From: Asanoa iriomotensis
GTDB taxonomy: Bacteria > Actinomycetota > Actinomycetes > Mycobacteriales > Micromonosporaceae
Reading direction: 5' to 3'
Assembly: GCF_016862515.1 (NCBI RefSeq)
Contig: NZ_BONC01000013.1
Span: forward strand, 1 to 64,000
DNA length: 64,000 nucleotides
Of the stretch, positions 8,501 through 58,810 are shown piece by piece. The translations under genes and the position numbers were made by a program. The notes below the pieces were generated by a model. That model worked only from the letters and a program-made list of their open reading frames with translations, had not been told where the DNA came from and did no database searches. How positions within the stretch are numbered: the stretch's first letter is position 1; each line of letters starts with the position of its first letter.

Positions 8501-8758
8501 GCCGTTGCCGCAACCCGGCCTGGTGCCGTCGCCGCAACCCGGCCTGGTGCCGTCGCCGCAACCCGACCTGGTGCCGTCGCCGCAACCCGGCCCGGCGCCG
8601 TCGCCGCAACCCGGCCCGGCGCCGCCGCAACCCGGCCCGCCGCCGTCGCCGCAACGCGGCCTACTGCCGTTGCCGCAACCCGGCCCGCCGCCGTTGCCGC
8701 AACCCGGCCCGCCGCCGTTGCCGCAACCCAGCCCGCCGTTGCCGCAACCCGGCCCGAG
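8501..8758. repeat. 24 bp tandem repeat, 11 units
   Basis: Unit GCCGTYGCCGCAACCCGGCC plus four variable bases. Eleven units run head to tail at 8501-8758; units 6 and 10 are 21 bp. Five units contain the perfect palindrome GTTGCCGCAAC; most of the others have GTCGCCGCAAC, which breaks one half. On the + strand it would read as 8-residue VAATRPG repeats. Confidence 0.9.
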
Positions 8759-9395
8759 GTGCGCATGCGGATGCTGCGCAAGCGCCAACTCGACCGCCGT
8801 GCGACGTGTTGCTTTGTAGTTGGCGCCGACCTTTGCCGCCCGTTTCCGCGTTGGCCCGCGGTGGTGAGCGCGTTGCCGCAACGGGTTCCCGCCGCGCAGT
8901 TGCCGCAGACGGTCCTGGGCTGCAGGCACTAGCCGCGGCGCGGCGAATCCGCAGTTGCGGCAACGCACGGCAGGTGCCAGTTTCACAGCCTGTTGGTCAT
9001 CGCCAGGTGCGGTTGCCGCAATGCCCCGCGGCGTTCCGATTGCCGCAACATGGTCCGGGCCGGGGCGCCGCGCGGCGAGTCCGCACTCCCGGCAATGCAC
9101 CGCAGCCACAAGGCCGCACACATGGCTGGGCGGTAGCCGACGGTGCGGTTGCCGCAACGCCGCTCGGCCGAGTCCGCAGTTGCGGCAACACGACAGGTGC
9201 GGGGATCACAACCAGCGGGTCGCAGGGAGTGCGGTTGCCGCAAAACGGTCCGGGCTTGGGGCGCCAGCCGCGACGCGGCGAGTCCCTTGTCGCGGCAACG
9301 AGCGGCAGGTGAGGCATGCCGCGACGCCCCATACTCGGTGCGTCGCCGCCGGAGTCCGGTTGCCGCAACAACGTTTGTGGGCTGGGGCGCTAGCC

Positions 9396-9641
9396 GCAAC
9401 GCGGCGAGTCCCTTGTTGCCGCAACACGCGGCAGATGCGGGATACAACAACAGCGCACACCCGGCCCCGCGCAAGCCGCAACGCGGCGAGTCCCTCGTTG
9501 CCGCAACACGCGGCAGGTGCGGGCTACAACAACGGCGCACACCCGGCCCCGCGCAAACCGCAACGCGGCGAGTCCCTCGTTGCCGCAACGCGCGGCAGGT
9601 GTGGGCTGCAACAAGGGCGCACACCCGGCGGTCTTCGGCGG
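9396..9641. repeat. 82 bp tandem repeat, three units
   Basis: Units begin at 9396, 9478 and 9560. Each contains GCGGCGAGTCCC, then the palindrome GTTGCCGCAAC, then CGCGGCAGRTG and a CACACCCGGC segment. The period of 82 is not a multiple of three, so the array is not maintained as protein code. Degenerate copies of the same core (GGCGAGTCC...GTTGCGGCAAC...GGCAGG) occur upstream at about 8940 and 9280. Confidence 0.85.
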
Positions 9642-10096
9642 AGTTCGGTTGCGGCAACGACGTTCTGGGCTGGGCACTAGCCGCAGCGCGGCCAGTCTGC
9701 GGTTGCGGCAACGCGCGGCAGGTTGGCGCAACGCGGTCGGGGCCGGTGGGGCCGATGACCTGGCTGATCGAGAGGAACGACGGGCAGACGAGCCGCGGGC
9801 GGGCGTTGGCACCCCGATCGGATCGTCCTCGACGTGCGCCTGTGGCCAGGCACAAACCACACCGAGCTCCGGCGGCGGCGCGGTCTTCACCAAGAGCCTG
9901 CTTTGTCGGTTGCAGGGCGACCAACTTTCTCCTGGGCTGGAGCCCGGCCCCTCACTTCGTCGGCCGAAACGGGGGTGCATGGACCGCGTGGCTGAGTGTG
10001 GGTCGGTCTAAAGGGCGGCGGGTCGGGCCGCACGGTAGCTATCCCCGGCTCTTCACGCTCATCCATGTCCATGTGCTGCGCCGGTACGCTGCGCGC

Positions 10097-35195: not shown

Positions 35196-37220
35196 CTACG
35201 AGCTCTGCTTGATCCGGTTCGTCAGCTCGGCGATCTGGTTGTAGAGCGACCGCCGTTCCGCCATCTGCTGGCGGATCTTCCGGTCCGCGTGCATCACCGT
35301 GGTGTGGTCGCGGCCGCCGAACGCCTGCCCGATCCGGGGCAGCGACAGGTCGGTCAGCTCGCGGCAGAGATACATGGCCACCTGGCGGGCGTTGACGAGC
35401 ACCCGCGAACGGGAATGGCCGCGGAGGTCCTCGAGCGAGACGCCGAAGTAGTCAGCCGTCGACACCATGATCTGATCGGCGGTGATCTCCGGGCCCGACC
35501 CGTCCGGGATGAAGTCGCGCAGCACCTCTTCGGCGATCGCGAGCTCGACCGGCGACCGGGTCAGCGAGGCGAACGCCGTGACCCGGATCAGCGCGCCCTC
35601 GAGCTCGCGGATCGAGTTGGCGATCCGCGACGCGATGAACTCCAGCACGTCCGGCGGCGCGTACAACCGCTCCTGCGCCGCCTTCTTCTGCAGGATCGCG
35701 ATCCGCGTCTCGAGGTCCGGCGGCTGGATGTCGGCCAGCAGCCCCCACTCGAACCGGGTGCGCAGCCGATCCTCCAATGTGGCCAACTGCTTCGGCGACC
35801 GGTCGGAGGTGATGACGATCTGCTTGTTGGCGTTGTGCAGGGTATTGAACGTGTGGAAGAACTCTTCCTGCGTGCGCTCGCGGTTCTCCAGGAACTGGAT
35901 GTCGTCGATCAGCAGGATGTCGACGTCGCGGTAGCGGCGCTGGAACGCGCTGGTCTTGTCGTCGCGCAGCGAGTTGATGAAGTCGTTGGTGAACTCTTCG
36001 GTCGAGACGTAGCGCACCGACCGTGCGTTGCCCAGCGTCGTGGCGTAGTGGCCGATCGCGTGCAGCAGGTGCGTCTTGCCCAACCCGGAGCTGCCGTAGA
36101 TGAACAGCGGGTTGTACGCCTTCGCCGGCGACTCGGCCACCGCGACGGACGCCGCGTGGGCGAACCGGTTGGACGAGCCGATGACGAACGTCTCGAACAT
36201 GTACTTCGGGTTGAGGCGGTTGCCGCCACCGTCGGCACCCGCGCGCCGTTCGTCGCGGCGACCCGGACCGCTGTCGCCACCCTCGCGCCGCATCGCCTGC
36301 GTGGGCGGCTCGTCGTAGGGCAGCCTGCGGTTGTCGGGCTGGTCCTGCTGCGCGGCCGGTCGCTGTTCCTCGCGCGGCTGGTACGGCGTGCCGTACGTGG
36401 TGCCGCCGCTGGAGTAGCCGGGGACGGCCTGGGGCGGCGACGCCGGGTACGGGGTGCTGAACAGCGCGTCCTGGCGGTCGCGTTCGGCGCCCCGCGGGGT
36501 GGGGTTCGCGGCTGGCACCGGCGGGCGGGCCTTGCCGACGGCTCCGGTGCCGGTCGGGCGGGCGCCCTGGGCCGGCGCGGCCGGGCTGGTCGGTGCCGGG
36601 TCGACCGGTGGGTTGGGCTTCGGCTGGATGACGCTGTGCAGCGCGGTCGGGGCGTTGAGGGCGTTGATCTGGTCCGGCTTGGCGGCCGGCCGCGGCTCCC
36701 CGGCGGGTGCCGGGCTCGTGGCTGCCGCGCTCGGGCGCGCGGTGGGCTGCGGCGGCGTGCCGGGTTGGCGGGGGGCGGGAGCCGGTGGTGACGGCGGCGG
36801 CGCGGCGGCCGGCTTGGGCGGTTCGGCCTGGCCGGTGGTGTCCGGCGGGGTGGTGCGCTGGTGCGGCGGGTAGGCGCTGGCGGCGAACCCGCCGGCCTCG
36901 TCCGGCGTGGGGGGTGCCGGGGGCCCGAGCGGAAAGCCGGCCGGCCGTGGTTGACCGTCCTCAGGGGGGCGGACGGTGACCGCGACCTGGATCGCGCGAC
37001 CCATCCGCCGGGAGAGCGCCTCGGTGATCGCCGGCCGCAGCCGGGACTCGATGACGTCCCGGGTGAACGCGTCGGGCACGGACAGCAGGGCGGTGTCTTC
37101 GACGATCGCGCGGAGCCGGGTCAACCGGAGGTAGGCGCGCTGCTGGGCGGAGACGATCTCGTCCGCGAGCTCGTCGGTCGCCGCCAGCCACACGCCGGCG
37201 AGATCGATCGTCTCGGACAC
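35196..37220 (-). CDS. dnaA: Chromosomal replication initiator DnaA
   Basis: 674 residues, start GTG at 37220 after a G-rich ribosome binding site. Domain I is at 1-85. An exceptionally long Pro/Ala/Gln-rich domain II covers about 85-325. Domain III is AAA+ with Walker [10 protein letters not shown] near 374 and Walker [10 protein letters not shown] near 438. Domain IV holds the DNA-binding signature [15 protein letters not shown] near 645. E. coli DnaA is 467 residues, so the extra length is all in the linker, as in Streptomyces. Three perfect DnaA boxes upstream suggest autoregulation. Confidence 0.98.
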
Positions 37221-37841
37221 CCTGTCGCCACCCCCCTCGATCCATGTGCTCGGCCGCGACGGGCCTGCTCAGACCCGCTGCCACCTGGGCACAGTCCCCC
37301 GCGTACGGGCGGCTGGCCTGACCGCTGTCCACAAGTTGTCCACAGCCTGTGTGCTGGCCGATCGTGGCCCTTTACCCATACGAACTGACGAACCGGACTC
37401 GACCGATTCGGCAGTGGTGTGGCTTCACCGTGCCGAACGATTGACCACCTCGCCCGGTTTTGCCCCGTATGGCAGCCGTGAGCCCCCCAGATCGCCGACC
37501 AGCAACCCGGCACGCTAACAGCGTTGTCCACACCCCTACAACCGTTGTCCACAGAACTGCCTTCTCGGTATACGCAAAAGGGGGCACGATTGGGCTGCGC
37601 CGTACCCGCCGCGGCCTGCGACGACGCGCCGTTTGCCGGTGTTTGACGGTCATTGCGGCGGTGCGTAGGCTAGAGCGGCCGCTCCGTCGCCCTCTGGTAG
37701 GGTGACGGATGTTTGCTGGGTAGGTGCGTCTCGCATCTCGAGCACGCCGGCCGACGCGCCGAGGCACGCCTCGTGCGGCGCGCCGCGCATCAACCAAGAC
37801 CGGCCCGCCTGTTCGGGCCGCCCGACGACGGAGAGCCTGAC
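37221..37841. promoter_or_regulatory. dnaA-rpmH divergent control region with DnaA boxes
   Basis: 621 bp with no gene. Perfect DnaA boxes TTGTCCACA lie at 37336-37344, 37524-37532 and 37545-37553, and a CTGTCCACA at about 37325. These probably repress or tune dnaA and may extend the origin to the other side of the gene. The rpmH promoter and its roughly 160-base leader fill the right end. Confidence 0.75.
37643..37671 (+). promoter_or_regulatory. Sigma-A type promoter of the rpmH-rnpA-yidD-yidC unit
   Basis: TTGACG (37643-37648), 17 bp, TAGGCT (37666-37671). Hexamers and spacing both fit a housekeeping promoter. The predicted leader before rpmH is about 160 bases. Confidence 0.65.
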
Positions 37842-40719: not shown

Positions 40720-41451
40720 GTGACCGACCTCCCTGTCCCTCCGGCCGTAGCTTCGGTGGTCTTCGGTGACCGCCTGCCGCTGGCTGCTCGATATGCCTCC
40801 CTCCTGGCCACGGACGGTGTGGTTCGCGGCCTGATCGGCCCCCGCGAGGCCCCGCGTCTCTGGGACCGGCACCTTCTGAACTGTGCCGTGATGACCGATT
40901 TGATCCCTTCCGGCGCTTCGGTGATTGACGTAGGGTCTGGGGCCGGTTTGCCCGGTATCGTGCTTGCGGTGGCGCGACCGGATCTTTCCGTCGTTCTGGT
41001 CGAGCCACTGGCACGACGGACCGCCTTCCTGGCGGAAGTGGTGACCGCGCTGGGCCTGGACGCTGTCGTGACAGTCGTCCGCGGCCGAGCGGAGGAGGTA
41101 CGGGCCGCAGTTGACCCGGCCGACGTGGTCACCGCTCGGGCGGTCGCGCCGCTCGACCGACTCGCCGGCTGGTGTCTCCCCCTCACCGCACCCGGCGGAC
41201 GGCTGCTCGCCCTGAAGGGCGCGTCGGCCTCCGACGAGATCGCGGAACACCAGACCGCGATCGGTCGACTGGGTGGTGCCACGCCGGTCGTCCGGCAGTG
41301 CGGGGTCGGCCTCGTCGACCCGCCGACGACCGTCGTGGAAATCGTCCGCGAGCGCGTAGTCGAGCCGGCATCACCCCGGCCGGCCGGCCGGGGTCGGCGC
41401 CGCTCCTCATCGGAGAGCGGCGGAGGGCGCGGGACAACGCGGAGGGGTTAG
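40720..41451 (+). CDS. rsmG: 16S rRNA (guanine-527-N7) methyltransferase
   Basis: 243 residues. SAM-binding motif [16 protein letters not shown], then [16 protein letters not shown], and the family segment [11 protein letters not shown]. It methylates G527 of 16S rRNA; loss gives low-level streptomycin resistance. The GTG at 40720 with TGGAG upstream matches the conserved N-terminus ([14 protein letters not shown]). Its TAG stop is directly followed by the ATG of the long parA frame. Confidence 0.94.
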
Positions 41452-44400
41452 ATGGGTCGGCGGGGACCAGCACCTGGGTTCGAATCCACTTCCCCGCCGT
41501 CTTTGGCTGATCCACCGGGTGATCGCGCCGATGCGGACGCTTCCCCGGAGCGGGGGGCTCGCCGTGGTCGTGTTGACGCCGAGTCGTCGGACGGCCCGAC
41601 TGCCGAGGGGCCGGGCTCCGCGGAGTCGCCGGAGGGTGTCTCGAAGCGAGCGCCTCGCTCTGGCAGCGGCGGCGCGGACCGGGATGCTTCCGCGAAACCG
41701 TCACCTCGTGGTGCCGCCCGGCCTTCTGACAGTGCGGCTGCGTCCGGAGCGGAGTCGGTTTCCGTGGCTTCCCGCGACGGGGTCACGAAGCGGACGCCTC
41801 GCGCTGGCCGTGGTGGCGCGGGTTCGAGCGCCGCGGTCGCGGGGGCCACGCGCGTAGGGCCGGTTGCCACTGCGGACCTGGACGCTCCCCGGGCGCGTCG
41901 TGGTGGCGCCAAGTCCTCGGACGCTGCACCTGCGTCCGTGGCGCGGTCGGCTTCCGTGGCGTCCGCGAAGGGCGTCTCGAAGCGGGTGCCTCGCGCTGGT
42001 CGCGGTGACGCGAAGTCGGACGGCGCGGCTGCTGCTGTGCCGCGGTCGGTTTCTGCGGCGGCGCCGGACGGCGCCTCGAAGAGCACTCCTCGCGCTGGTC
42101 GTGGGGTCGCGGTTTCGGGTGGCGTGCCAGCGGGAGGCGGCGTCTCGAAGAGGTCGCCTCGCGGTGCTCGTGTTGGTGCGAAGTCGGACGGCGCGCCTGC
42201 GGCAGGGGGTGGGGCCCTGTCGGTTTCGGCGACGTCGCCGGACAGCGTCTCGAAGAGGTCGCCTCGCGGTGCTCGTGTTGGTGCGAAGGCGGACAGCGCG
42301 CCTGCAACAGCGCGCGGGGCCCGGTTGGTATCCGCGACGTCGCCGGACAGCGCCTCGAAGTCGGCCGGAACTGGTCGTGGTGTCGGGCGTTCGGGCGGCG
42401 CGCCCGCGGGAGGCGCTCACGCGCCGTCGGCTGCGGGCGCGAAGCTCGGTGCCGATTCGACGCCGGCATCCCGTGGCGGCGCGGGTTCGGACGGTGGGTC
42501 TGCGCGGGCGGCCGTGTCGGCTTCCGGAGCAAAATCCGATGCCGTCTCGAAGGGGTCGCCCCGCGCAGGTCGTGGCGGCACGATTTCCGATGGTGTACCC
42601 GCGGCGAGCGGGGTGCGGTCGGCTGTCGGCGCGCGGCCCGACGCTGCCTCGAAGAGGGCTCCTCGCCGTGCCACTGCCGGTTCGGGGTTGGAGGGCGCGG
42701 CTGCGGGAGCAGTTCGGCTGCGGTCGACCGGCGAGTCGGAGTCCAACGTCGCCTCGAAGCGGGCCCCTCGCCGTGCCATTGCCAGCTCGGGGTCGGATGG
42801 CGCGGCTGCCGGAGTCGCTCGGCCGCGGACGACCTCCGAGTCGGGGTCAAACCTTGCCCCGCAGCGGCCACCAGGCCGAGTTCGTGCTGGCGCGGTGACG
42901 GACGGCGCGAGCGGCAAAGAGGCGTCGCCGCCGCGGAGTGGTCGCGGCGTTGCCGCAACGCCGACGTCAGCGCGAAAGACCAAGGTGGCGGCAACCCCTC
43001 GTCGGACGAAGGTTGCGGCAACCCCACGCACGACCGGGGTTGCGGCAACGCCTGAGGCCGACGTTGCCGCAACCCCGCGCAGGACCGCAGTTGCCGCAAC
43101 GCGGCCTCGGACCGAGGTTGCGGCGACCCGACGCACGAAGGGGGTTGCGGCAACGCTTGAGACCGACGTTGCCGCAGCCCCGCGCAGGACTGGAGTTGCC
43201 GCAACGCGGCGTCTTACCGAGGTTGCGGCAACCCCACGCGCGACGGGGGTTGCGGCAACGGCTGAGACCGACGTTGCCGCGACCCCGCGCAGGACTGGAG
43301 TTGCCGCAACGCGGCGTCGGACCGAGGTTGCCGCAACCCCAGGCGAGGAAGTTGCCGCATCGTCCGCCTCGGAAGGGGCTCACCGGCGTGCGGCAAAGGC
43401 CGCCTCCTCAGCCGCGACGAAGAAGGCCGTCGTGGCGAAGACGCCGACCACGCCAGCGTCGTCTGCGTCCCGCGGCCGTGGTGCCCGGGACGCCGCCGGT
43501 GGCCTAGGGCCGCCCGGAGTCTCCGACGATTCGGCACCGCTCGAACCCAGCGGCCGTGATGCCGCTTCACCGGCGGCCGCGCCACCATTGTCGAAGGCCA
43601 GCAAGAGCCAGGGCCGGTCATCGGTCGCGACCTCGCGACGTCGTCGCGATTCCGTAGGCGAGGTGGAACCGAACGCGCCGTCCTCGCTCGGCTCAGCGGT
43701 AGTCCACGATTTGGGTTCCGATGCGAGCCCCGCGGCCGGCGCGGCGAAGCGGGCTCGCGCAGCACGGCGGACTTCGGCGCAGGAACCGATCGCTGTCGAG
43801 GGCTCAGGGCTCCACGACAAGCGCGCGAATCGGAGCGCCTTGGGTGCGGACGCCGATACCAACGCCACCGTTGCACGCCAAAGGTCCGCGGTGGGAAATC
43901 AGAGTGAAGCAGGGCGATCCGGCTCCAGCCGCTCAAGCGTTCGGCCCGCTGTTCGGCATTCCGAGCCTCGACTTGTCCCCGACGAATCAGATATCGCCGC
44001 TCCCCTACGGTCCCGGTCTCCCGGGTCCCCGAGCATCGAAGAACCAACCACGGCGTCGGGCGCGCCGCGAGGGCGCTCGCCACGTGCACGGCAGGCCACC
44101 GAACTCGCGGCCCAGAGCAAGCCCGCACGTCCTGGCACCCGACGGGGCGTCGTGGCAGCTGTAGCTGGTCCGCTGGACGATGCACCTGACTTCGTGTCAG
44201 ATGCGCTCGTCGACGCTCCCCAGACAGGCAGGCCTTCGGCTCGCGACCGCGACGGTTCCTCGGCCGGGAGGGACCCTGAGCATGATCCGGCTGGCCAGCA
44301 CAAGGCGCCGCGGCGTGCAGCCAGTCGAAATGGGTCCGGCAGCGAGGCGGCTGGGCGTGACACGGCCCGGCAGCACACGGCCCTGCGGCATGCAGCCGGC

Positions 44401-47082
44401 CGAGACTTGAGCGAGAGCGATGTGATCGCACGAGACGCCGGCGGTCGGGACGCGGTCGAGCGGGATGCCGGCGGGCGGGACGCGGTCGGGCGGGATGCCG
44501 GCGGGCGGGATTCGGTCAGGCGGAATTCGGCTAGGCAGCCCAAGGCGCCGCGGAATGCAGCTAGTCGAGATGCGGGCGCCAAGGATGTTGTCTTGCGAGA
44601 CGCCGGCAGCCAGGAGGAGGTCGAGCTCGATGCGGTCGGCCCGGACGCGGTCAGGCGGGACAAGGCTAGCCAGGACGACGCTGGTGAAGGCGAGGCCCCG
44701 CGGAACGCAGCCAGGCGAAGCGTCGGTCGCCGGAAGACGGCTGGGCAGGACAAGGACGCGCGGACTGCAGCCGTTCGCGGCGTGGACAGTCGGGACGCGG
44801 TCGAGAGCGATGTGCGTCGGCGGGACGCGAGCGAGGCGGACGCGGTCGGCCGGAGTGCGGCTGTCCTGGCGGCAGACGCCCAAGACGCCGACGACCGGGA
44901 GGTCGCCGGGCGCGACGCGTCGGGGTCTGGTTCAGAGGCCCCACCGTCGGTGAGTGGGAAGCGCCGCGTTGTTCGGCGTCAGCGGCCTGGCGCTGATGAC
45001 GGCCCGACTTGCTCCAAGGGCGAATCGGGTGGATCAAGTAATGGCAGAGGATCGCGCGATTCGAGTCGAGGTTCTGCGGTGTCTGGTTCGGTTATGCGGG
45101 GCGGTGAGCCGGCGGGGTCCGATCGCCGGAACACAACGGGCGGGGCTGGTCGTAAGGCTGCTAATTACGTGGAACGGACTAACGAAACTCATCAGGAGGA
45201 CTCGGCCCGCCGGTCCGCGGCGGCACGGTCCACACCGGCGCAACAGCGGGCAAGCCGTGAAGGGCAGTCCGCTTCGTCGGACATGAAGCGAAAGGCCGGG
45301 AATCAGGGGCCCGGCGAGGCCGGCGTCCGGCCGGTGAGGCCGAGCAACAAGACGCCACGTACCGAGCCGGACCCGGAGGAGGCATCGGAGCAGAGCGCCA
45401 AGGCCGCTAGTCGGCGTGGCAACGTGTCAGGTTCCCGTCGCGTACCGGTGGGTGGGACGGGTTGGCCGCCGGTCGCGACGCCGCGGCGGGGTGGTTACCT
45501 GCGGCTCGTTGACGGGTTCCTGGTGTTTGTCCCTCCACACTCGGGTACCGAAAGCACCGACGACCCGAACAGCCGTGGCCTTGAACGGAGAACGGCCGTA
45601 GGCTGGCCGCGCGGCACCAGTGCGGAAGACGCGGCCGGGACGCACCCGCCCGCAGCGGCCGACCAGCAGCGCACCGCCTCGGCTGGGCCGGCCGGAGCGA
45701 CGTCGCCGCCACACGCGATCACCTCGAGCTTCGGCGAAGCCGATACACCCCGAGCGGACAGGGACGACACCGTGCATGACAACGACGACCAGGACCCCGG
45801 CGCGACAGCGCCTCATGTTTCACGTGAAACCGGGCCCGATGGTTGGGCGGTCGGTAGGCGCGCGGCGGTCCCCGACACTGGTCTGCCCCACCCCCGCGTC
45901 GCGAGTGGACAGACAGAGCCGGTAGCTACCGCGTCAGACGGGTCCGGGACAGCGCCGCGTGTACCCCTCGCCGTACCATTCTCTAGCCCAGACAACGGCG
46001 GCGGCGCCGGCTATCAGGGTCGGCCCGATGTGGCCGAGCGCTCTCCCGCGCCGGCCCCACGTCCGCAACCAGCCCCTACCACGGATCGGGTCGATGTCGC
46101 TCCGCCCCGGCCCGCACCAACTCGGTCCGCTACGCCTACCGTTGCGCCCGAGGCGACCCCGGAGGAAGCGGTGACCGACGCGTACGTTTCACGTGAAACC
46201 CCTACACGTGAAGACGACGACCCGCCGTTGGCGATGGAAGCTCTACGCGCCGTCCAGATCCTGAATCCGAGCGGCGAGATCACCATGCCGCGCCCGGACC
46301 ACACTCGGATCATGTGCGTCGCCAACCAGAAGGGCGGTGTGGGCAAGACCACGACCACCGTCAACCTGGCGGTGGGCCTGGCTCTGCACGGCAACCGCGT
46401 CCTGGTGGTCGACCTCGACCCGCAGGGCAACGCGTCGACCGGTCTGAACGTGCCCCATCACGCTGGCATTCCGGACGTGTACGACTGCCTGATCGACAAC
46501 GTGCCGCTCTCGGACGTCGCCCAGGCGGTCGAGGGCATCCCGAACCTCTGGTGCGTACCCGCGACAATTGATCTTGCTGGTGCGGAGATCGAGCTTGTGT
46601 CCGTGGTCGCCCGTGAGTCCCGCCTGTCAAGGGCGATCGCCGCGCATCCGGGCACCTTCGACTACGTCTTCATCGACTGCCCACCGTCGCTCGGCCTCCT
46701 GACCGTCAACGCGCTCGTCGCGGCGCAGGAGGTGCTGATCCCGATCCAGTGCGAGTACTACGCCCTGGAGGGTCTCAACCAGCTGATCAACAACATCAAT
46801 CTGGTACGGCAGCACCTCAACCCGACGCTCGACGTCTCGACGATCTTGCTGACCATGTACGACCGCCGCACCCGCCTCGCCGACGCCGTCGAACAGGACG
46901 TGCGCAACCACTTCGGCGACAAGGTGCTGCGCGCGGTCATCCCCCGCAACGTCCGGGTCTCCGAGGCGCCGAGTTATGGCCAGTCGGTCATGACCTACGA
47001 TCCAGGGTCGCGTGGCGCCACCAGCTACTTCGAGGCGGCCCAGGAGATCGCTGAGCGTGGCGTCAAGGGAGGCAAGGCATGA
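41452..47082 (+). CDS. parA: ParA chromosome-partitioning ATPase with about 1,600-residue repetitive N-terminal extension
   Basis: A single uninterrupted frame of 1,876 codons. Residues 1612-1876 are a complete ParA: Walker A KGGVGKT (1627-1633), [20 protein letters not shown], and [13 protein letters not shown]. It drives origin segregation with ParB. The 1,600 residues before it are disordered, rich in Ala, Ser, Gly, Arg and Asp, in three repeat zones: SKR-PR repeats (about 35-480), VAAT repeats (about 500-640) and RDA repeats (about 980-1150). A strong GGAGGGG precedes the ATG, which abuts the rsmG stop. Alternative shorter starts for a normal ParA are GTG 45772 (AGGGA upstream) or GTG 46171. 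That no stop occurs over 4.8 kb argues the long frame is translated. parB overlaps its end by ATGA. Confidence 0.75.
42949..43361. repeat. In-frame array of GTTGCSGCAAC palindromes inside parA
   Basis: Sixteen sites, 11 of them perfect, begin at 42949, 42985, 43012, 43039, 43063, 43090, 43117, 43144, 43168, 43195, 43222, 43249, 43273, 43300, 43327 and 43351. From 43012 on the steps are 27 or 24 bp, giving a higher-order period of about 105 bp. In the parA frame each site codes for VAAT or VAAA. Confidence 0.92.
44431..44520. repeat. 30 bp tandem repeat, three units, inside parA
   Basis: Unit CGGGATGCCGGCGGGCGGGA plus CGCGGTCGGG. Read in the parA frame it gives 10-residue RDAGGRDAV-type units. 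Similar RDA motifs continue in looser form to about 44900. Confidence 0.85.
45817..45830. promoter_or_regulatory. parS site (perfect), inside the parA frame
   Basis: GTTTCACGTGAAAC, the perfect ParB-binding palindrome. In the parA frame it reads VSRET. It sits 45 bases after the candidate short parA start at 45772. Confidence 0.93.
46186..46199. promoter_or_regulatory. parS site (perfect), inside the parA frame
   Basis: Second perfect GTTTCACGTGAAAC within parA, again read as VSRET, about 100 bases before the conserved ATPase domain. Confidence 0.93.
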
Positions 47083-48188
47083 AGAACCGTCCGAGGGGCG
47101 GTCTTGGACGCGGGCTGGGTGCGCTGATCCCCACCGCTCCGGCTCAGGCTCCGGCGTCGTCCGTCGCCGTCGCGCCGCCGCCGGTGGAGACCGAGACGGA
47201 GCCGGAGGCGCCGCCCGTTGCCAGCGCGCCGCCCGCGCAGGTGTCCGCTCCCCCGGCGGAGGCGCCGACGCCGCCACCCGTACCCCAGGATGAGGCTCAA
47301 CCAGCGGCGAAGGCGGCTCCTCAGCCGGCGGCGAGCGACCCGGATCCGGACCTGGCGCCCGTCCCCGGCGCGCGGTTCGCCGAGCTGCCCGTCGACGCGA
47401 TCGTGCCCAACGCGCGCCAGCCGCGGTCGGTCTTCGACGACGAGGCGCTCGACGAACTCAAGATCTCCATCCAGGAGGTCGGCTTCCTGCAGCCGATCGT
47501 GGTGCGCGAGACCGAGGAGGCCGGGCGCTACGAGCTCGTCATGGGCGAGCGGCGGTGGCGGGCCGCGCAGGCGGTTGGGCGGTCGACGATCCCGGCGATC
47601 GTCCGCGACACGCGGGACGACGCGATGTTGCGGGATGCGCTGCTGGAGAACATCCATCGGGCCAACCTGAACCCGCTGGAAGAGGCGGCCGCGTACCAGC
47701 AGCTGTTGGAGGAGTTCGGCGCGACGCACGAGGAACTGGCGCGTCGGATCGGGCGGAGCCGCCCGCAGATCTCCAACACGATTCGGTTGCTCAACCTGCC
47801 GGCGGTCGTACAACGGCGGGTTGCTGCTGGGGTGTTGTCGGCTGGGCACGCGCGTGCGCTGCTCGGGCTCGATGACGCGCAGACCCAGGAGGAGCTTGCG
47901 CACCGGGTTGTCGCGGAGGGTCTGTCGGTGCGGGCGACCGAGGAGCTGGTGACGCTCGCGCTCGCTGACGGTCCGGCGAAGCCGGCGACGCCGGCCAAGC
48001 GTCGGGTCAAGGCCGTGGCGCCGGCGCTGTCGGATCTGGCGGACCGGCTGTCGGACCGCTTCGACACGCGGGTCAAGGTGGAGCTCGGCCGCAACAAGGG
48101 CAAGATCTCGATCGAGTTCGCGACGGTCGACGACCTCGAGCGGATCGTCGGCATCATCGGGATGGGTGACGAGCCGCCTACGGAATGA
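47079..48188 (+). CDS. parB: ParB chromosome-partitioning protein
   Basis: 369 residues. Start [18 protein letters not shown], the conserved ParA-stimulating N-terminus. A Pro/Ala linker (about 20-100) precedes the CTPase/ParB core ([43 protein letters not shown]). The helix-turn-helix [19 protein letters not shown] reads parS. The C-terminal dimer domain ends [13 protein letters not shown] overlaps the parA stop by 4 bp. A strong terminator and a parS site follow. Confidence 0.97.
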
Positions 48189-58106: not shown

Positions 58107-58810
58107 CCCAAGCGAAACCCGAAGATCAAGAGGCGGTCCCGGGTCCGCCGGGCGCACGACCGTCGCTCCCGCCGGGCACCGCTCGCTCCGCTTCGCTGCG
58201 ACGCCCGCGCAACACAACCAAACCCAACCCTGGCTGACAGCGCCGCTCTGCGCGATCGCCCAGGCCGGCGGGCCGCACCATGCGGCCGATGGGGGGCGTC
58301 CCCCGTGATCGAGCGCTGCCGACAGTCGCCCGCGCGTCGTGACCCCGGACTCCCAGACGGTTGCGGGTGTTGCCGCAACCAGCCGGGACGGGGAGGTGCA
58401 GGTGTTGCCGTAACGGTCGGGACGGCGAGATGCCGCTGTTGCCGCAACGGTCGGGACCGGGAGGTGGAGTGTTTGCCGCAACGGTCGGGCCGCGAGATGG
58501 GCGTGTTGCCGCAACCGGTCGTCAGCGTGAGGTCCGGGTGTTGCCGCAACGGGTGCGGGCGAAGCAGACCCTGAGCCAGCGCGCGCGGTTGGCCCCGAGC
58601 GATCTCAGACGGCCGTCAGCGGATCGGCCGGCGCTGCGACGCACCGTCCTGCGAACTGGCGTGTTGCCGCAACAGTCCACGACGCGCGGGTGAGGGGTTG
58701 CCGCAACAGGCAACGCGCGCCGAGTGCAGGTGTTGCCGCAACAGGCGGTCGGCTCGGACGCCGAGCCAGCGAATCAGTCGGCCGGGTGAGCGGACCTGCC
58801 GGGCCGAGCG
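58107..58810. other. Non-coding region with spaced palindrome array
   Basis: 704 bp between convergent genes. Apart from the array at 58369-58742 I see no gene, promoter or RNA. Confidence 0.6.
58369..58742. repeat. Array of GTTGCCGCAAC palindromes at 33-35 bp spacing
   Basis: Sites begin at 58369, 58404 (one mismatch), 58438, 58472 (one mismatch), 58505, 58540, then 58663, 58697 and 58732. Steps are 35, 34, 34, 33, 35, then a 123 bp gap, then 34 and 35. The intervening sequence also repeats (CGGTCGGGACGG-type). It is not in a coding frame. Confidence 0.9.

Follow-up and report, generated by a model that had tools for sequence, protein, structure and literature searches.

In the window, by which we mean the whole 64,000-nucleotide stretch of Asanoa iriomotensis DNA that was analysed, rsmG, parA and parB follow one another on the forward strand (Table 1). 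The parA frame encodes a deviant Walker A motif of 12 residues. A deviant Walker A ATPase domain is a mark of ParA chromosome-partition ATPases. The assignment is further indicated by the adjoining parB gene and by six perfect parS sites in the window, beginning at positions 45817, 46186, 48235, 51046, 51970 and 54356 and recognised by what we take to be the parS consensus. The sites at 45817 and 46186 are situated inside the ordinary ParA coding frame. The VSRET peptides that they encode are largely kept in relatives, and we attribute these peptide motifs to the presence of the two parS sites.

Table 1. Features of the rsmG-parA-parB locus in the window.
Feature	Position	Strand	Evidence or remark
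rsmG (gidB)	40720..41451 (provisional start codon; stop TAG 41449-41451)	+	Pfam GidB, 4.2e-48; frame read from 40657
GGAGGGG ribosome site inside the end of rsmG, serving the upstream ATG	41441..41447	+	sequence
Long parA frame, putative giant isoform, 1,876 aa	41452..47082 (stop 47080-47082)	+	
Genus-conserved N-terminus, first 16 codons	41452..41499	+	dN/dS 0.36
Hypervariable, nearly aromatic-free, predicted disordered stretch, 1,179 codons in the window	41500..45036	+	
Repeat zone 1, 105-bp units (42140-42360 and 42646-42909)	42140..42909	+	
Repeat zone 2, 105-bp units (43000-43341) and 11 GTTGCSGCAAC copies	42949..43341	+	
Repeat zone 3, 15/30-bp units	44434..44523	+	
Conserved 15-residue patch, predicted beta hairpin	45493..45537	+	surrounding segment dN/dS 0.13 in the genus
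Promoter-like block: GTGGCC, 18-bp spacer, TAGGCT (45599-45604)	45575..45604	+	
Ribosome site AGGGA (45760-45764) and internal GTG start (45772-45774)	45760..45774	+	
Ordinary ParA from the internal GTG, 436 aa	45772..47082	+	comparison with relatives
parS site GTTTCACGTGAAAC within the coding frame, peptide VSRET	45817..45830	.	
Second parS site within the coding frame, peptide VSRET	46186..46199	.	
ParA ATPase domain, last 265 codons	46285..47079	+	Pfam AAA_31, 6.9e-58
parB, overlapping the end of parA	47079..48188	+	Pfam ParB_N, 8.5e-35; HTH_ParB, 2e-36

The ATG at 41452 adjoins the stop codon of rsmG without a gap, and the GGAGGGG site is located just 5′ of it. The 1,611 codons between this ATG and the ParA core contain no stop, against 12–35 stops in each of the other five frames and about 29 or about 21 stops expected from the base composition or a first-order Markov model, respectively. 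A preliminary description of this DNA had proposed that a frame with a strong ribosome site runs open from the rsmG-abutting ATG through ParA and that a chance frame would meet stops repeatedly, and both statements agree with these counts. Its figure of about 1,600 residues for the extension corresponds to the codons preceding the ATPase core, but only 1,440 residues are added to the ordinary protein, since comparison with relatives places the start of ordinary ParA at GTG 45772.

Two in-frame starts with ribosome sites are thus present in the sequence (41441-41454 and 45760-45774). Family members with a closed upstream frame begin ParA at the GTG equivalent to 45772. The ribosome site and the GTG could be identified at 44 family loci, and in all 44 the element CGTAGGCT was found 57–174 bases upstream. 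Because the pattern used to find these loci itself contains a ribosome site and a GTG, the count is independent for the TAGGCT block only. The underlying DNA search was performed on 48 loci (L145, which has the same long frame as L016, was omitted), and the four loci where the internal start was not located (L029-L032, Glycomyces and Streptomyces records) are all outside the family. An earlier, stricter DNA pattern matched 8 loci, and a frame-based inspection of 41 frames gave the GTG in 32, a misplaced match in two (L145 and L016) and none in seven. The upstream hexamer position is occupied by RTGG in 31 of the 44 loci, by RTGG shifted one base up in nine and by RTAG in four.

Around the GTG, the codons of all 16 invariant residues are synonymously identical in six species, compared with 276 of 490 in the whole distal part. 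The freezing of codons around TAGGCT is moderate (8 of 11 in the genus versus 134 of 256 in the ParA core). In Micromonospora, no frame continuous with rsmG runs through the TAGGCT block, which is therefore preserved there as DNA. We read the GTGGCC/TAGGCT block as a putative parAB promoter, and in our reading the VGWP residues are invariant in the extension because of this promoter-like block. As the block and the GTG are kept where the upstream frame is closed, the ordinary start appears to be retained, and the 436-aa ParA is probably still made. The proposal that ParA has become a giant fusion can be accepted in part: a selected coding extension in phase with ParA is indicated, but ParA itself seems not to be replaced, its ordinary start having been retained.

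It should be noted that a GACAC sequence occurs between the ribosome site and the GTG in the window and in many relatives and is absent from the Actinoplanes-type loci shown. GACAC is described as the WhiA motif (PMC3781837), and WhiA regulation is also treated in PMC4255298. In addition, a second run of 12 codons that are synonymously frozen in the genus was found at 45055-45099, possibly a further DNA element in the extension.

The comparison within the genus included the window genome and five relatives, all six with a ParA match. Their open parA frames encode 1,876, 1,526, 1,733, 1,481, 1,383 and 1,642 aa, and each of the six starts at an ATG that directly adjoins the rsmG stop and is preceded by a GGAGGG ribosome site. 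One relative with the long frame is represented by a single-contig genome, which speaks against an assembly fault. The comparison of the rsmG-parA interval suggested in the preliminary description thus gave a frame that is open and of varying length in these six genus members and also in several other genera. The ATPase itself is 99–100% identical across the genus (core dS 0.36, dN/dS 0.01).

Between the first 16 residues and the conserved distal part, each species has a hypervariable stretch of 688–1,179 codons. It is nearly unalignable, as blastn covers 0–81 bases in 14 of the 15 species pairs; in the closest pair (G002/G003), 1,004 of 2,826 bases are covered. When the hypervariable codons of the six species were pooled (5,455 codons), the ParA frame had no stop and seven aromatic residues (F, W or Y; 0–2 per species), against 24–160 stops and 129–398 aromatics in the other five frames. 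The codon periodicity of the stretch has one shared phase in all six species and amounts to 66–111 chi2 per kb, compared with 11 and 30 chi2 per kb in two repeat arrays of the window taken as intergenic; these controls, of 1,271 and 481 bases, are shorter than the test stretches. In Markov-1 simulations of the six extensions, stop-free runs were obtained in 0 of 500 cases for each species. When the hypervariable parts of the closest pair were aligned globally as nucleotides, 17 gaps resulted, of which 14 are multiples of three; the blastn pieces contain three gaps, just one of them a multiple of three; the aligned bases (1,016) all begin in the same frame.

Since the frame is open, biased against aromatics, periodic in a shared phase and not reproduced by the Markov-1 model, the hypervariable stretch is, as judged from sequence, selected as a translated, disordered polypeptide. 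What selection holds would be the residue make-up, with few hydrophobics and almost no aromatics or cysteine, and not the sequence. A dN/dS of 0.59 for the hypervariable part came from a forced alignment and was left out as evidence. The other extension segments gave dN/dS values of 0.36, 0.57, 0.13 and 0.51, so that the constraint on the extension is far weaker than on the ParA core. The GC content at third positions is 0.67–0.72 in the extension versus 0.85–0.92 in the ParA domain. Therefore, the codon usage of the extension is unlike that of the neighbouring ATPase, and its expression may be low.

A conserved patch near the end of the extension is predicted to form a beta hairpin. Differences in the hairpin core among 20 loci number 532, 277 and 1,031 at codon positions 1, 2 and 3, i.e., they fall mainly on the third, with the limitation that selecting the loci by a peptide pattern biases these counts. 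A peptide pattern used to look for the hairpin missed some true copies that are revealed by alignment (for example, in L016 and L144). According to the alignment, the patch is missing in four Actinoplanes-type loci (L147, L148, L151 and L154), all with an abutting long frame, and so it is not essential. For the last 682 residues, AlphaFold2 gave a weak model (mean pLDDT 46, pTM 0.39). In this model, the 417 extension residues covered are disordered except for one hairpin (pLDDT about 60) and a helix immediately preceding the ATPase domain, and most extension blocks have a pLDDT of 28–43. A Pfam search of the extension gave no match at E up to 1, and no N-terminal HTH of the kind present in long plasmid-type ParA was recognised by Pfam in the whole extension or in the weak model of the 417 residues. 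The hydrophobic fraction of the extension is 0.078–0.105 versus 0.175–0.231 after base shuffling. Low contents of hydrophobic and aromatic residues, together with the lack of a predicted fold in the model of the last 682 residues, are consistent with a disordered extension.

DNA binding, phase separation and tethering of ParA had been proposed as activities of the Arg- and Ala-rich extension, of which tethering may apply. For DNA binding, a selected positive charge is unsupported: the net charge per residue of the six genus members (+0.056 to +0.076) is lower than that expected from base-shuffled DNA (+0.112 to +0.130), and in 13 other fused loci it ranges from -0.071 to +0.027. The genus chain is still net positive and might bind DNA weakly. 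For phase separation, the route through aromatic stickers was rejected on composition as unlikely, the chain having almost no aromatics (seven in the 5,455 pooled codons).

The three repeat zones noticed earlier were confirmed, with 105-bp units in two of them and 15/30-bp units in the third. The 105-bp unit corresponds to 35 codons and is thus a multiple of three. In zone 2, the palindrome GTTGCSGCAAC reads as the peptide VAAT. The window contains 33 copies of this palindrome (0.04 expected) in three clusters, at 8504-9712, 42949-43337 and 58369-58742, of which only the middle one falls in the parA frame. Genome-wide, 161 copies were counted versus 3 for the reversed control pattern, and the five genus relatives have 7–61 copies versus 2–8 for the control. 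Closely paired copies were also found on contigs C24 and C29 of the window genome and in two relatives. Frames holding palindrome arrays in L184-L187 show 3–122 chi2 per kb, and the array frame of L187 (212 codons, 70 chi2 per kb) may be coding. The palindrome was not found in the rsmG-parA intervals of the five other genus members (0 of 118 loci) and can therefore not account for the extension in general; on this ground, a DNA-only role of the zone 2 palindrome was rejected as the general reason for it. The hypervariable chain may grow by in-frame uptake of species-specific repeat DNA.

To place the locus in a broader context, ParA matches were obtained in 297 of 300 genomes of the family sample and in 147 of 148 genomes of the class sample. 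The family is taken to be Micromonosporaceae, to whose genera the named relatives with 90–95% ParA identity belong. Among the matches listed, the open frames of the family outside the genus span 369–1,092 aa; in the class sample, the window frame is the longest among the matches listed, and the next one has 882 aa. Thirty-five rsmG-parA loci from outside the genus were chosen for long frames and genus spread, and the following fractions are therefore not prevalences. The ATG abuts the rsmG stop in 18 of the 35 loci (17 distinct, the frame of L145 being that of L016), including named Paractinoplanes, Actinoplanes and Pseudosporangium records; the frame starts 1–53 bases past the stop in five; and it is closed or starts at least 54 bases off in 12. 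The last group comprises the Micromonospora loci and one locus from outside the family (L029, Glycomyces). In the zero-gap loci, rsmG ends with GGAGG and a stop-ATG junction, and among the closed loci something similar was seen only in L153.

Read by topology alone, without support values, a phylogeny of 48 loci based on RsmG, ParA and ParB places loci with the extension in several distinct clades, among them the early-branching Dactylosporangium loci. Taken together with the hairpin common to 20 loci, this suggests that the extension is an old feature that has been lost several times. Across the examined loci, 137 to 1,611 residues precede the highly conserved ATPase core, and these loci thus constitute a natural length series.

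We suggest that parA is a two-start gene giving a short ParA and an rsmG-coupled giant isoform, which we consider the best explanation of the locus and a fairly probable one. Sequence comparison establishes that the frame is open and selected for translation and that the internal signals are conserved; from there, we infer that two proteins are produced, the long one by reinitiation. The ordinary 436-aa ParA would have its own promoter, with TAGGCT at 45599, and be translated from GTG 45772, and the giant isoform of 1,876 aa would arise when ribosomes finishing rsmG restart at ATG 41452 (termination-reinitiation). The added 1,440 residues would form a soluble disordered chain with a small conserved beta hairpin near its end. 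As a working guess by analogy, the long form would join ParA dimers, giving mixed dimers with altered packing, oligomerisation, diffusion or DNA residence, and the hairpin could serve as a docking motif. It is also conceivable, as a tentative and rather doubtful extension of the model, that the disordered chain, over three times as long as ordinary ParA, acts as an entropic bristle tuning packing, nucleoid movement or hyphal-tip hold; the hairpin would dock a partner, and the sequence could turn over completely as long as its make-up is held.

Several other explanations have to be weighed against the two-start gene. If the giant protein were the only or main ParA and the internal GTG and promoter block were relics, all six genus members would likewise be expected to show one unbroken frame leading in phase into ParA, as they do. 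However, relics should drift at the observed divergence (core dS 0.36), yet the block and the ribosome site with GTG are kept in the 44 located family loci and the surroundings of the GTG are synonymously frozen in the genus, which makes this explanation unlikely. It is likewise improbable that the leader is translated and the product is then cut or degraded, so that only the leader or the short ParA works and the leader effectively constitutes a protein of its own that happens to share the frame. The almost unconstrained length and sequence of the leader agree with such a possibility, but an independent protein could end anywhere, and in the 18 zero-gap loci from several genera no stop precedes ParA.

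The frame might also be kept open only in order that ribosomes cover the spacer between rsmG and parAB against Rho-type termination, with the peptide being irrelevant. We infer that the open frame, the coupling signals and the unalignable sequence would fit this. Nevertheless, ribosome cover leaves unexplained the near absence of aromatics in the hypervariable codons (7 in 5,455), the conserved N-terminus and hairpin segment, and the growth of the spacer itself, many relatives having only a few hundred bases there; we consider it very unlikely. Finally, stop-poor repeat arrays elsewhere in these genomes open hundreds of codons in several frames at once, which could point to an assembly or chance artefact arising from high GC and repeats. 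Here, the ParA frame alone is open, in six species, one of them with a single-contig genome, and it shows codon periodicity and residue bias, so that an artefact is hardly credible.

The nearest precedent for the proposed two-start gene is IncC1/IncC2 of plasmid RK2 (IncP-1), where alternative starts lead to ParA forms of 364 and 259 aa and the extension alters dimerisation and non-specific DNA binding (PMC2666795). Both systems have a ParA ATPase with an N-terminal extension encoded in frame upstream. The IncC extension is plasmid-encoded and has 105 aa, whereas that described here is chromosomal, begins at the rsmG stop, has 1,440 aa and is hypervariable and predicted to be disordered. Unlike in the IncC1/IncC2 system as described there, a promoter-like block for the short form is located inside the frame, and the two products are predicted here from sequence. 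The ParA proteins of Mycobacterium smegmatis and Corynebacterium glutamicum are described as having an N-terminal extension of 20–25 aa, and the N-terminal region of the former is involved in DivIVA binding (PMC9298525); in comparison, 171 residues of the ordinary and 1,611 of the long form precede the ATPase-core query here. As in the window, parA follows rsmG in the Streptomyces loci examined.

A further likeness is found in nFtsK, the N-terminal extension of mycobacterial FtsK, a conserved ATPase of chromosome segregation. This extension is long, disordered and lineage-specific and is reported to be dispensable for core function (PMC13277299). It belongs to a different protein and is described as conserved, positively charged and lipid-binding, whereas the ParA chain is hypervariable and less positive than its base composition predicts. 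A search of full-text literature, in which the matches listed were judged by title and abstract start and subscription papers were mostly outside the scope, gave no description of a long ParA form.

ParA is a highly conserved and normally compact segregation motor, and a possible giant disordered form makes the effects of added mass testable in mycelial bacteria. The extension also provides a clear case in which composition rather than sequence appears to be selected.

Some other observations were made in the course of the analysis. In the window, the region 36250-37249 differs from its surroundings, with GC up to 0.81 and AT skew down to -0.55. An open frame of 347 aa at G000:C80:18299-19051 (L002) contains a second ParA-like ATPase (47% identity). 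In addition, two equal ParA matches are present on opposite strands of one contig (G112:C397:419-1204 and 95983-96768), perhaps as a result of an assembly duplication.
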